64,000 bases of DNA from an uncultured Litoreibacter sp. Its GTDB lineage: Bacteria > Pseudomonadota > Alphaproteobacteria > Rhodobacterales > Rhodobacteraceae. Made by a program: the position numbers and the translations under genes. The DNA is taken from the NCBI RefSeq assembly GCF_947487515.1, contig NZ_CANKWO010000001.1, positions 1 to 64,000 on the forward strand, in the 5' to 3' direction. This document shows positions 31,554-36,660 of the stretch, one piece after another. How positions within the stretch are numbered: the stretch's first letter is position 1; each line of letters starts with the position of its first letter. The notes under the pieces were generated by a model, which ran no database searches, was not told where the DNA came from, and saw nothing but the letters and a program-made list of their open reading frames with translations.

Positions 31554-33701
<2,148 letters not shown>

Positions 33702-33706
33702 GTATT

Positions 33707-35797
33707 ATGTCAGGTCGCCCAGAAATCCTTTTCCCGCTGTTTACCGCGTTGACCGAGCTGGACGGAATAGGCCCGAAAACCGCCAAAAATTTCGAACATT
33801 TGCGGATCGAAAAGCCTCGCGATCTGCTCTTTACTCTTCCACAATCGGGGATCGATCGGGCGCTCAAAGAGTCTGTTCAAGATGCCATTTTGCCTGATGT
33901 GGTGACCGTCGAAGTCGAAATCGGAATGCATGTTCCCCCGCGTTCACGCGGGCGCCCGTATCACATCCACGTCACGGATAAGACGCTGGAGTTTCGCCTC
34001 ATATTCTTCCACGCACATGGAGATTATCTAAAGAAACAACTTCCTACAGGGCAACGGCGCGTGGTGTCCGGCAGGGTTGAGATATTCGACGGGCAGGCGC
34101 AAATGGTGCATCCCGATTACATTATGACGGTCGATGAAGCCTCCGAAATTCCGGCGTTCGAGCCGATATATCCGCTGACACAAGGGGTCACTCAACGGGT
34201 CATTCACAAAGCTGCAAAATCGACGCTGACACGTGTGCCTGCACTGAGCGAATGGATTGATCCTTCGCAAAAGGCAAAGGCCAATTGGCCAGACTGGGAC
34301 GACGCCATTCGGGCGGCTCATACTCCGCAAAAATTGTCCGATATCACGGCCACCGATCCGCAGCGTGAACGCTTGGCCTATGACGAATTCTTTGCCCATC
34401 AGCTAACCCTTGGGTTGGCTCGTGCGAGGGTTCGCGCAAAGCAGGGTGTTTCAAGTCAGGCGACAGGCGTGCATCAATCGCGCGTGCTTGCAGCGCTTCC
34501 CTATGCTCCAACCGGAGCGCAAACCCGCGCAATTTCCGAGATCGCCGAGGATATGGCGGCCCCAATACGGATGAACCGGCTGCTACAGGGCGATGTTGGG
34601 GCGGGGAAAACCTTGGTCGCCTTTATGGCGCTACTGGGGGCCGTTGAAGCAGGTGGGCAGGGGGTCATGATGGCGCCGACAGAAATTTTGGCCCGTCAGC
34701 ATCACGAAAGCTTGGTCCCCTTGGCCGCAGACGCGGGTGTAGTGCTTCAGCTTTTGACGGGTCGCGACAAGGGATCAGAGCGAAGCGCAAAGCTCAAAGC
34801 ACTGGCGTCTGGCGAAATCCATATTTTGGTGGGCACACATGCCGTTTTTCAAAAAGATGTTGAATTCAATGATTTACGACTAGCGGTCGTGGATGAGCAG
34901 CATCGTTTTGGCGTGAATCAACGCTCGGAGTTGGGCGCGAAGGGGCGCGCGGTGGATGTGTTGGTGATGACCGCGACCCCAATTCCGCGATCTTTGTCGC
35001 TGGCACAATACGGGGATATGGATATCTCTGTGCTTGATGAAAAACCGCCAGGGCGCAAAGCGATTGCCACGGCCACGGTGTCTACGGGGCGCATTGACGA
35101 GGTGGTTCAAAAGTTACGCGGCGTGATCTCAGAGGGGCGGCAGGCCTATTGGGTGTGCCCATTGGTGGAGGAAAGCGAACTCAGCGATAAAACGGCAGCC
35201 GAAGATCGGTTCAAACGGCTTCGCGCGGCCCTTGGTGAGGATGTCGTTGGGTTGGTGCATGGACAAATGCCGCCAGCGGAAAAAGATGCGGCCATGGCGA
35301 AATTCGTAGCTGGTGAGACATCGGTCTTGGTTGCAACAACGGTGATTGAGGTGGGGGTAAACGTGCCCAATGCCACCATTATGGTTATTGAACGGGCCGA
35401 GACCTTCGGTCTGGCTCAGCTACACCAATTGCGCGGGCGGGTGGGGCGCGGGGATGCGGCCTCTACCTGTTTGTTGCTGTTTCAGGATCCTTTGTCGGAA
35501 ACGGCGAAGCGGCGTCTGAACATCATGCGAGAAACTGAAGACGGGTTCAGGATCTCTGAGGAAGATCTGGCAATTCGCGGCGCAGGAGATTTGATTGGCA
35601 CGGCGCAAAGCGGGCTGCCTCGGTTCAGGATTGCAGATATTGAAAGTCAGGCCAGCTTGATGTCAATCGCCCAGAGTGATGCGCGCAAATTGCTGGCGGA
35701 CGATCCATCACTAACATCACCGCGCGGGCAGGCCGCACGTGTTCTTCTGTGGTTGATGGAACAGGATAAGGCAATACGTTTGATTTCAGTGGGTTAG
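33707..35797 (+). CDS. recG: ATP-dependent DNA helicase RecG
   Basis: This 696-aa helicase remodels stalled forks and branched DNA. The N-terminal wedge/OB domain (about 20-260) includes LDGIGPKTAKNFEHL. Walker A is GDVGAGKTLVAF (about 296), the DExH-type box VVDEQHRFGV (about 395), and ATTVIEVGVNVPNATIMVIERAE and QLRGRVGRGD are motifs V and VI. ATG 33707, five bases after the ligA stop region, gives the family start. ligA and recG are probably cotranscribed. Confidence 0.97.
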   Translation: MSGRPEILFPLFTALTELDGIGPKTAKNFEHLRIEKPRDLLFTLPQSGIDRALKESVQDAILPDVVTVEVEIGMHVPPRSRGRPYHIHVTDKTLEFRLIFFHAHGDYLKKQLPTGQRRVVSGRVEIFDGQAQMVHPDYIMTVDEASEIPAFEPIYPLTQGVTQRVIHKAAKSTLTRVPALSEWIDPSQKAKANWPDWDDAIRAAHTPQKLSDITATDPQRERLAYDEFFAHQLTLGLARARVRAKQGVSSQATGVHQSRVLAALPYAPTGAQTRAISEIAEDMAAPIRMNRLLQGDVGAGKTLVAFMALLGAVEAGGQGVMMAPTEILARQHHESLVPLAADAGVVLQLLTGRDKGSERSAKLKALASGEIHILVGTHAVFQKDVEFNDLRLAVVDEQHRFGVNQRSELGAKGRAVDVLVMTATPIPRSLSLAQYGDMDISVLDEKPPGRKAIATATVSTGRIDEVVQKLRGVISEGRQAYWVCPLVEESELSDKTAAEDRFKRLRAALGEDVVGLVHGQMPPAEKDAAMAKFVAGETSVLVATTVIEVGVNVPNATIMVIERAETFGLAQLHQLRGRVGRGDAASTCLLLFQDPLSETAKRRLNIMRETEDGFRISEEDLAIRGAGDLIGTAQSGLPRFRIADIESQASLMSIAQSDARKLLADDPSLTSPRGQAARVLLWLMEQDKAIRLISVG

Positions 35798-35836
35798 GTG
35801 AAGTAGAACGCTTCGTGCTTCTGTTTGTTCACGTTT

Positions 35837-35851
35837 GTTCTCAAAAAGTTC
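35837..35851 (+). promoter_or_regulatory. LexA (SOS) box of the alphaproteobacterial type
   Basis: GTTCTCAAAAAGTTC is an exact GTTC-N7-GTTC direct repeat, the LexA recognition pattern of Rhodobacter and other alphaproteobacteria. A further GTTC lies at 35827-35830. It is 67 bp upstream of the 40-aa membrane protein start at 35919, a plausible promoter position. No other gene lies between the recG stop and this ORF. Confidence 0.7.
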
Positions 35852-35918
35852 TTTACAAGTCATGAATTTAGTGAGAACAAAGGTGCAACAAAAGAAACGA
35901 CTTGAGGGAGCTTTCAAC

Positions 35919-36041
35919 ATGATCAAAGATTTTCGCGACGTTCTGACCCGTTCACCCAAAGCACTTCTGCACGACGCTGCTGGAATTGCATCGATTGGCG
36001 TAATGATGACGGTCGCCCTCTACATTCCCAAATTTTTCTAA
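35919..36041 (+). CDS. 40-residue single-helix membrane protein, predicted SOS-regulated
   Basis: The 40-aa ORF starts at ATG 35919 behind GAGGGAG (eight-base spacing). The N-terminal half is polar and basic (MIKDFRDVLTRSPKALLHDA). The C-terminal half is one hydrophobic helix (GIASIGVMMTVALYIPKFF), giving an N-in membrane anchor. An upstream in-frame extension to 68 aa has no RBS. An exact LexA box lies upstream, and a strong terminator follows at 36177, so it forms its own transcription unit. In Caulobacter the 29-aa SOS-induced SidA blocks division; a similar role is an inference. Confidence 0.75.
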   Translation: MIKDFRDVLTRSPKALLHDAAGIASIGVMMTVALYIPKFF

Positions 36042-36176
36042 GAGTTAACTGCCTGCTGTCTTTCAATAGGTCCGACCGGTTTTCTGTCCCGATGCCCGTC
36101 GGAATACGCAATGTCCCCAACATCACCGGCTGCTTTCCGGTATGCGTAAACACCCTGACGAGACTAGCTGACTGGC

Positions 36177-36209
36177 CGCCGCGTCCCGCCCGGGCGCGGC
36201 GGTTTTTTT
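36177..36209 (+). terminator. Strong terminator after the 40-aa ORF
   Basis: CCGCCGCG (36177-36184) and CGCGGCGG (36195-36202) form an 8-bp GC-rich stem, extended by inner GCCC pairing, and are followed by seven T residues (36203-36209). It ends at the stop codon of the convergent IscU-like gene. Confidence 0.92.
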
Positions 36210-36660
36210 ACGCGCAATTTGCGTGACTTACCTGCTCCATAGCTTCAACAGTCGCATCAATGGCCAACATGATTGATGCATGACGGTTCTTGAATTCTTT
36301 CGCCGGCAGAAGAACTTTTAACCCGTCAAAGGGGGCGTCTGGGGCAGGGCCATCTGATTTCAACATGGCTTTCAGTTGCGTTTGGGCCGTGCGAACTTCT
36401 TTTGCGGTGCGCCCAATCACGGCCGCCCCCACGACGGAGGCTGCGGCCTGACCCAAAGCGCAGGCTTTCACATCCTGCCCGAAGCCGGTGACCCGATCGT
36501 CTGCCATCGTGATATCCACGGTGATCGTGGATCCGCATAGCGGCGAGCGCCGTTTCACCGTCGCTTGCGGTTCATCCAGCCGATCTGTAAGGGGTATCTC
36601 CGCAGCGAGTGCGAGAATTTGGCCCGAATAGAGCTTGATGAGGTCGCTGTTCTCAGACAT
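36208..36660 (-). CDS. IscU/NifU-like iron-sulfur scaffold protein
   Basis: This 150-aa protein of the IscU/SufU fold has the first two ligand cysteines in SPLCGSTITVDI (about 41) and VKACALGQAAASV (about 67). The third cysteine expected near residue 130 is replaced by the segment AKEFKNRHASIML, so cluster binding would need another ligand. This is a recurring variant in alphaproteobacteria. It lies away from the suf operon, divergent from hisI. Confidence 0.82.
   Translation of the reverse strand: MSENSDLIKLYSGQILALAAEIPLTDRLDEPQATVKRRSPLCGSTITVDITMADDRVTGFGQDVKACALGQAAASVVGAAVIGRTAKEVRTAQTQLKAMLKSDGPAPDAPFDGLKVLLPAKEFKNRHASIMLAIDATVEAMEQVSHANCA

Follow-up and report, generated by a model that had tools for sequence, protein, structure and literature searches.

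A conserved and probably LexA-controlled transcription unit of the Rhodobacteraceae: a candidate SOS division inhibitor joined to a structured 3′ RNA

The Locus and Its Features

The window (the whole stretch of DNA analyzed here, 64,000 nucleotides in length) belongs to a Rhodobacteraceae genome, as judged by its relatives, and contains a short unit downstream from recG. The gene order is ligA, recG, the unit, a NifU-like gene on the opposite strand, hisI, and a gluQ-like gene, as recognized by Pfam, except for the NifU-like gene, which has no Pfam match and is named from the appearance of its sequence. In all of the first 30 loci (30/30), recG was found beside the open reading frame (ORF) of the unit. 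The features of the locus are as follows:

33674..35797, plus strand: recG, the upstream neighbor (Pfam RecG_dom3_C, RecG_wedge, DEAD)
35827..35830, plus strand: extra GTTC half-site, 10 nt before box 1 (consensus positions -10 to -7, 88–95% conserved per base, 109 loci)
35837..35851, plus strand: LexA box 1, GTTC-N7-GTTC, GTTCTCAAAAAGTTC (109/110 loci; the same type of site at lexA, recA, and uvrA)
35852..35857, plus strand: TTTACA, perhaps a -35 element (71–98% conserved per base, 109 loci)
35875..35889, minus strand: second operator, reversed, GAAC-N7-CAAC (consensus GAACAAAgNggCAAC; GAAC-N7-GAAC in some relatives)
35904..35910, plus strand: Shine-Dalgarno-like GAGGGAG (read from the sequence)
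35919..36041, plus strand: ORF of a predicted 40-aa single-helix membrane protein (conservation, purifying selection, AlphaFold2 helices)
36049..36172, plus strand: predicted structured 3′ RNA, with a closing helix and inner hairpins, and unpaired CUGCCUG and CUGUCCC (model R2, fold z, covariation in relatives)
36174..36209, plus strand: intrinsic terminator (13-pair stem with 10 G-C pairs, then a T run)

The first-pass annotation of this DNA had described a LexA box located 67 bp ahead of a 40-aa ORF with a good ribosome-binding site, closed by its own terminator. The box is present at 35837–35851, and the ATG at 35919, 67 nt past it, opens a frame of 40 codons with its stop at 36039–36041, preceded by GAGGGAG at 35904–35910. 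The terminator also exists, as a hairpin at 36174–36204 followed by the T run, although it lies approximately 130 nt beyond the stop codon, rather than right behind the ORF; a loose text pattern recovers a terminator-like end in 105 of the 110 loci compared. That annotation overlooked two features: the reversed operator that faces box 1, and the structured RNA that separates the ORF from the terminator. The TTTACA is perhaps a -35 element, a role which we infer, given that no sigma-70-type promoter pair passes a consensus scan at the locus.

Conservation of the Operator Block

The box by itself is not above chance. The bare GTTC-N7-GTTC pattern occurs four times in the window, where 2.34 matches are expected (24 of 100 shuffles have at least four), and 103 times in the genome, versus 185 matches for a reversed control pattern. 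It rises above chance because it is conserved in front of the ORF. A total of 121 loci were extracted, of which 110 have distinct coding sequences (the 11 repeats were dropped); these 110 were drawn from the better-scoring protein matches, which biases the set in favor of well-conserved copies. In 109 of them, the box is present ahead of the ORF, in contrast with a single one of 180 control chunks of 205 bases having a box in either orientation. The conservation of the box and the ORF together in the Rhodobacteraceae, which the first-pass annotation had proposed as a check, is therefore confirmed in 109/110 loci, with the ORF itself being found in 350 of 394 family genomes. Orthologous loci with no box, which it had considered to be evidence against its reading, are represented by a single case, L117, in which the GTTC repeats persist with a spacing of 6.

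Across the 109 loci, the box starts 68–115 nt ahead of the ATG, and in 102 of them a GAAC-type half-site begins 38 nt downstream from where box 1 begins. The consensus of the block over these loci is GTTC-nCaaAT-GTTCTcAaAAA-GTTC-TTTACa-N17-GAACAAAgNgg-CAAC.

In a reverse test, the 23-nt block ATGTTCTYAWAAAGTTCTTTACA alone was scanned in a named genome collection (84,980 species), which returned at least 118 stretches, with 80 matches being listed. The listed matches bear mostly Rhodobacteraceae names (Roseovarius, Sulfitobacter, Ruegeria, Leisingera, Celeribacter, Rhodovulum, Gemmobacter, and others), while a few are named only “Alphaproteobacteria” or “Pseudomonadota”. Among these 80, the ORF lies downstream in 78 and recG directly upstream in 79; in the two loci lacking the ORF, the fetched DNA ends too early, and in the one lacking recG, it begins too late. 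As the scan leads back to recG and the ORF, the block appears to mark one single locus, as far as the matches are listed.

Probable Control by LexA

Control of the ORF by LexA, as suggested by the first-pass annotation, is strongly supported by comparison, through the family-wide conserved block and the presence of the same type of site before lexA, recA, and uvrA. One LexA gene and one RecA gene were found in the genome. The lexA match (C1:131473) is preceded by a box at a distance of approximately 50 nt, the recA match (C1:264963) by one at approximately 105 nt, and the uvrA open frame by one at 51 nt. Within the family, GAAC-N7-GAAC precedes lexA in 27 of 30 genomes, versus one of 180 control chunks.

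In Caulobacter, the SOS motif is GTTCN7GTTC, and approximately 97% of the SOS promoters are reported to have a single box (PMC12700426), which makes the second conserved operator found here unusual. The recA promoter of the window genome (L114, 440–510, minus strand) has a degenerate GTTC-N7-GTAC facing a GAAC-N7-GAAC, which is the layout of the new unit, but 11 nt closer.

LexA was present in all 20 of the genomes examined that carry the ORF, and in 16 of another 20 in the family that lack it. Loss of the gene through the loss of LexA is thus not supported, and some SOS systems manage without the ORF. The LexA targets predicted in silico in D. shibae include lexA, recA, dprA, and others, with the ORF not being among the targets consulted, and recG does not occur in the main text (PMC6473078).

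A number of other sites were observed in the loci and genomes compared. Two overlapping boxes, formed by three GTTC half-sites spaced 11 (L099, 497–523), are located within the 3′-terminal part of an imuA-like ORF, named by eye and with no Pfam match, and perhaps serve the next gene. In L103 (480–552), GTTCCAATTTTGTTC stands 71 nt ahead of a gene for methyladenine glycosylase (Pfam), a candidate SOS gene of the window genome. The minus-strand box at offset 481 of L098, GTTCTCCTTAAGTTCTTCATAC, is close to the new block, and no ATG or GTG ORF of at least 40 aa starts within 260 nt downstream from it. The DNA-binding domain of lexA in one genome (G049:C1:1709448-1709635) is split between two partial matches that overlap, one of them containing two internal TGA codons, possibly due to a frameshift or an assembly error.

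The 40-Residue Protein

The window protein alone, used as the query, finds matches in 64 of 198 family genomes, and a profile of 30 relatives in the 350 of 394 Rhodobacteraceae genomes mentioned above, mostly as one copy per genome. A class-wide sample of 289 genomes yielded seven matches, four of them from Rhodobacteraceae, and the other three weak, partial, and located inside open frames of 200–330 aa, so that the protein appears to be confined to this family in the samples searched.

The start codon is ATG in all 110 distinct loci, the window copy included, which supports the 40-aa start over the TTG to which the window frame is also open upstream (68 aa). The length of the ORF is 40 codons in 93 of these loci, 42 in nine, 39 in seven, and 45 in one. 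Synonymous differences exceed the non-synonymous ones (pS 0.504 vs. pN 0.192 in 88 pairs with at least 70% DNA identity), a pattern indicative of purifying selection on the protein.

In the 93 sequences of 40 codons, D19, G22, L34, and P37 are invariant (93/93), K6 and R11 are conserved at 80% and 82%, respectively, and the N-terminal part is positive (mean net charge +0.97 over residues 1–18). Residues 20–34 are largely hydrophobic, with many small residues. A polar N-terminal helix (approximately 2–17) is followed by a predicted membrane stretch (approximately 20–36), and AlphaFold2 places helices at 2–11 and 13–39, with a mean pLDDT of 86.6. The single-helix protein described previously is thus real and conserved, based on the hydropathy, the AlphaFold2 model, and the 93 sequences. 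By the positive-inside rule, the positive N-terminal part would face the cytoplasm. The four invariant residues, together with the many small residues of the helix, fit a specific helix–helix partner.

No family was recovered over the cut-off in Pfam or NCBIfam (three members each; two sub-threshold Pfam matches were ignored), and there was no match in PHROGs or PADLOC (three members), nor in the PDB, using the profile. In tblastn searches, the window protein had no match among plasmids, and one relative had none among phages.

The Structured 3′ RNA

The stop codon is followed by a conserved, covarying RNA of approximately 125–140 nt, and then by the terminator. The stretches beyond the stop in the relatives contain repeated CTGCCTG and CTGTCCC, and distant complementary arms. 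In an alignment-free test, the best helix between two arms within a sequence was compared with that of arms swapped between sequences. For each of the four helices, none of 2000 permutations reached the observed mean: n was 89 for the closing helix, and 73, 56, and 33 for hairpins 2, 3, and 4, respectively. The set was restricted to RNAs of 140–260 nt that begin with the leading motif, which removed 16 of 105, and each hairpin test to the RNAs bearing its motif. Two coding-DNA controls gave 0.21 and 0.49. Consensus folding recovered only the terminator from the first large alignment, and the closing helix as well in three of five subsets of similar sequences.

A covariance model (R1) built from 16 sequences found 90 matches at E ≤ 1 in 100 loci, 15 of them training loci, with three of the 90 matches lying elsewhere in the locus (E 0.2–0.87). 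An alignment (A6) was then formed by 75 matches at E ≤ 0.003 from 81 loci, of which 72 had been chosen as prior matches and nine were untried. Double changes occur at all 27 pairs of A6, and 92.3% of the cells are paired, versus 70.5% when shuffled, values which lean towards the pairs of the model to which the alignment was fitted; when the partners are slid, pairing falls to 35–47%. RNAalifold predicted 22 pairs in A6, all with double changes.

A second model (R2), built from A6 with the window copy outside training, was applied to 34 loci outside its training, where it matched 26 at E ≤ 1 and left eight unmatched, with one match per locus in those 26, at or just behind the end of the ORF, and on its strand. 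The window copy scored 24.0 bits (E 0.0075 in 72 kb), and genome-wide, the sole match in the window genome is 36049–36172, which is weak (E 0.35); R1 did not find this copy genome-wide. Within the family, R2 gave 64 matches in 62 of 120 genomes, fewer than for the ORF (350/394), in a search that is weaker and differently filtered. For 44 of these 62 genomes, the position of the ORF was available for comparison, and in every one of the 44 the best match was located at the ORF or immediately downstream from it. Two genomes each have one further match, with E values of 0.45 and 0.59. In a class sample of 96 genomes, only one was matched at E ≤ 0.1, a member of the Rhodobacteraceae, and the copy of the window genome was missed at this threshold.

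The fold predicted for the window copy has an energy of -61.7 kcal/mol (z -2.5), with none of 200 shuffles being as stable, and this copy contains three UGCCU/UGUCC motifs, two of which are fully unpaired. In 94 RNAs, these motifs occur at a mean of 3.70 per RNA, versus 0.71 in an approximate dinucleotide shuffle, with at least three in 80 of the 94, and their letters are predicted to be 74% unpaired, versus 43% overall. The element is probably a 3′UTR regulatory RNA, and the layout of the locus suggests that it is transcribed together with the ORF.

Rfam gave no match at the gathering score, either in the window (35700–36300) or in 14 loci. The alphaproteobacterial sRNA ar7 aligns weakly over 36074–36208, at 18.9 bits versus a gathering score of 60, and was absent at E ≤ 1 from 14 loci, including that of the window, in a larger search in which only stronger matches would show; given this, it was treated as chance. 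A fragment of the Brucella sRNA CI408, perhaps a small repeat, was recovered by Rfam away from the unit in L045 (313–369; 40.8 bits vs. gathering 398). Self-regulation, through pairing of the RNA with its own ribosome-binding site, was rejected, with no excess over swapped sequences (p 0.92).

Possible Pairing with ftsZ

DinR, a 3′ RNA derived from the LexA-controlled dinI mRNA of Klebsiella, blocks ftsZ (PMC10907235), and as it acts on the ribosome-binding site, ftsZ was examined here before other genes. The two RNAs are alike in their origin, each corresponding to the 3′ portion of a short mRNA under LexA control, with, in the present case, a candidate pairing at the same site of ftsZ. In DinR, however, the pairing stretch is described as specific to Klebsiella and was demonstrated experimentally (PMC10907235), whereas the RNA found here is family-wide and its targets are putative.

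The sequence AGGCGGA stands just ahead of the ftsZ start in 24 of 25 genomes bearing the RNA or the ORF, in several of them as ACAGGCGGACAG; L338, L343, L345, L350, and L353 are among the ftsZ loci examined. It is also found at the ftsZ start in eight of 17 family genomes without the ORF (a ninth has AGGCGGA, with the start unmapped), and in none of the 11 other alphaproteobacteria examined, while the ftsZ of the window genome (L375) has GGGCGGA instead. This rare ribosome-binding site appears to be conserved at ftsZ in most of the Rhodobacteraceae examined.

The loop motifs could pair with such sites, given that CUGCCUGU is complementary to ACAGGCGG over eight bases, with one G-U, and CUGUCC to GGACAG over six. 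At ribosome-binding sites, ACAGGCGGA occurs in none of the 715 called genes of G049, where the ftsZ start is wrong, and in one of the 360 called genes of G073, which is ftsZ. A six-letter-word test gave 20 of 25 for ftsZ versus 128 of 716 control windows, in a comparison that was unmatched for ribosome-binding sites and included some wrong starts. By summed energy, ftsZ ranks 35/716 and 56/360 in single genomes, and when 132 ortholog pairs were ranked jointly, an ORF resembling mraZ by eye came first and ftsZ 14th, with its start wrong in one genome.

Of 20 stretches of the dcw cluster, one (G100), which had no RNA copy, was left out. Using the loops of the predicted folds, ftsZ had a mean z of -0.73 over 21 genomes, third of 12 dcw genes, behind ftsL (five genomes) and murD (18 genomes). 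A second attempt, made after this result with pieces centered on the motifs and compared with order-shuffled ones, placed ftsZ best of the 12, with a mean z of -1.62, ahead of murD (-1.16), although three of the genes were represented by only 2–7 genomes; the value for ftsZ was negative in 21/21 genomes, which are related, and do not therefore constitute 21 independent tests. Its motif-centered ranks in single genomes were 62/716 and 89/360. Pairing of the RNA with the ftsZ ribosome-binding site can thus be considered a doubtful lead, suggested by complementarity.

Function and Alternative Readings

The preferred reading, to which we assign a probability of around one half, is that of a LexA-repressed transcription unit of the Rhodobacteraceae, which would encode a SidA-like, single-helix brake on division and a probable regulatory 3′ RNA. 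The operator, the protein family, and the RNA structure are supported by comparison of the sequences, while SOS induction, the membrane topology, the division target, and any RNA target are inferred. In undamaged cells, LexA would occupy two facing operators around the transcription start, and following DNA damage, RecA would trigger LexA cleavage, releasing one short transcript. This would encode the 40-aa protein, consisting of a polar helix at the N-terminus and a single membrane helix, and the protein would most likely bind the septal wall-synthesis complex (FtsW/FtsI/FtsN) and delay division, as SidA does in Caulobacter. At its 3′ end, the transcript would carry the conserved folded RNA, in which the exposed, C-rich motifs are repeated, and which would probably be released to act as a regulator.

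Inhibition of division is the most likely function by analogy with SidA, DidA, and YneA-type proteins, which act in this way. A comparison of features shows that SidA of Caulobacter crescentus is likewise a LexA-controlled, tiny, single-helix protein of the inner membrane in an alphaproteobacterium with the same type of box. It has 29 aa, in contrast with the 40 aa found here. The gene drives the filamentation of Caulobacter lexA mutants (PMC12700426), and excerpts of the SidA literature mention no counterpart of the conserved 3′ RNA. Both SidA and DidA act on FtsW/FtsI/FtsN (PMC4211646), with FtsW or FtsN being the target of small membrane proteins of the SOS response (PMC4211646, PMC13396833). 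The study of YneA proposes that such proteins may commonly meet FtsW through the membrane helix, although its models for SidA, SosA, and ChiZ are not of high confidence (PMC13396833). DidA, YneA, SosA, and ChiZ are similar as damage-induced small membrane inhibitors of division that act on late division proteins (PMC4211646, PMC13396833), but differ in their sizes and domains: YneA and ChiZ carry LysM, and DidA is not LexA-controlled. The lack of a sigma-70-type promoter in the scan of the locus, the absence of a functional family or structure match for the protein, and the weak RNA copy of the window were counted against the preferred reading, as were the family genomes with LexA but no ORF, the D. 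shibae targets, and the detection of the RNA in fewer genomes than the ORF.

With regard to the RNA, it is somewhat unlikely that the element does no more than stabilize the 3′ end of the mRNA, with no target in trans. The unremarkable ranks of ftsZ in single genomes are consistent with this, whereas the conservation and repetition of mostly unpaired motif letters, beyond the stems, argue against it.

With regard to the protein, a different SOS role, such as the modulation of membrane-bound DNA repair, DNA uptake, or the function of the gene transfer agent, with division untouched, appears improbable. It would fit both the adjoining recG and the LexA sites predicted at recA, dprA, and the gene-transfer-agent cluster of D. 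shibae (PMC6473078), but the adjacency may reflect only a stable gene order, and nothing specific favors this role.

The preferred reading may be extended to a dual-function SOS transcript, in which the protein stalls the septal synthase while the CUGCCUG(U)/CUGUCC loops pair with the ACAGGCGGACAG-like ribosome-binding site of ftsZ. This extension is speculative and, as it stands, rather unlikely. If true, it would mean that division is stopped at both the protein level and the translation level.

TisB is a tiny, hydrophobic, SOS-controlled peptide, and a type I toxin. A similar membrane-active peptide, which would depolarize the membrane and slow growth without binding a division protein, is a distinctly less credible explanation of the present ORF, despite the agreement in size, single helix, and LexA control, and the precedent of the type I toxins of bacteria, a class of small membrane peptides (PMC8309996). 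A weak scan saw no promoter-like site on either strand, nor any antisense antitoxin. The gene, mostly a single copy per genome and present in most family genomes, occupies a conserved chromosomal locus beside recG, and neither the plasmid search with the window protein nor the phage search with one relative gave a match. The invariant D19, G22, L34, and P37, together with the largely hydrophobic stretch, would also suit a specific partner better than a pore.

It is very improbable that the RNA is the main product, with the ORF as a minor passenger, even with its strongly conserved structure and loop motifs, in view of the pS of 0.504 versus the pN of 0.192, the ATG in 110/110 loci, the narrow range of 39–45 codons, and the presence of the ORF in more genomes (350/394) than the RNA (62/120, in the weaker and differently filtered search). 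Finally, a chance box in front of a gene outside LexA control, to which the unenriched bare pattern in the window and genome might point, is negligible as an explanation, given that 109/110 loci keep the box in a fixed block, and that the 23-nt block leads straight to the locus among the matches listed.

Significance for the Rhodobacteraceae

No paper describing the gene or the RNA, and no SOS division checkpoint for the Rhodobacteraceae, was found in the mainly open-access literature searched; a word search for recG, LexA, and SOS in a study of sRNAs derived from the UTRs of R. sphaeroides found none of the three (PMC8625941). Small SOS-controlled membrane proteins are already known, and what is new here is the joining of such a protein to a conserved 3′ RNA. 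The Rhodobacteraceae are abundant marine and photosynthetic bacteria, and the unit is a candidate for an SOS checkpoint of division in the family as a whole. If this reading is true, a membrane-protein inhibitor and a 3′UTR RNA, which are known separately, would be joined in one conserved, damage-induced transcript.
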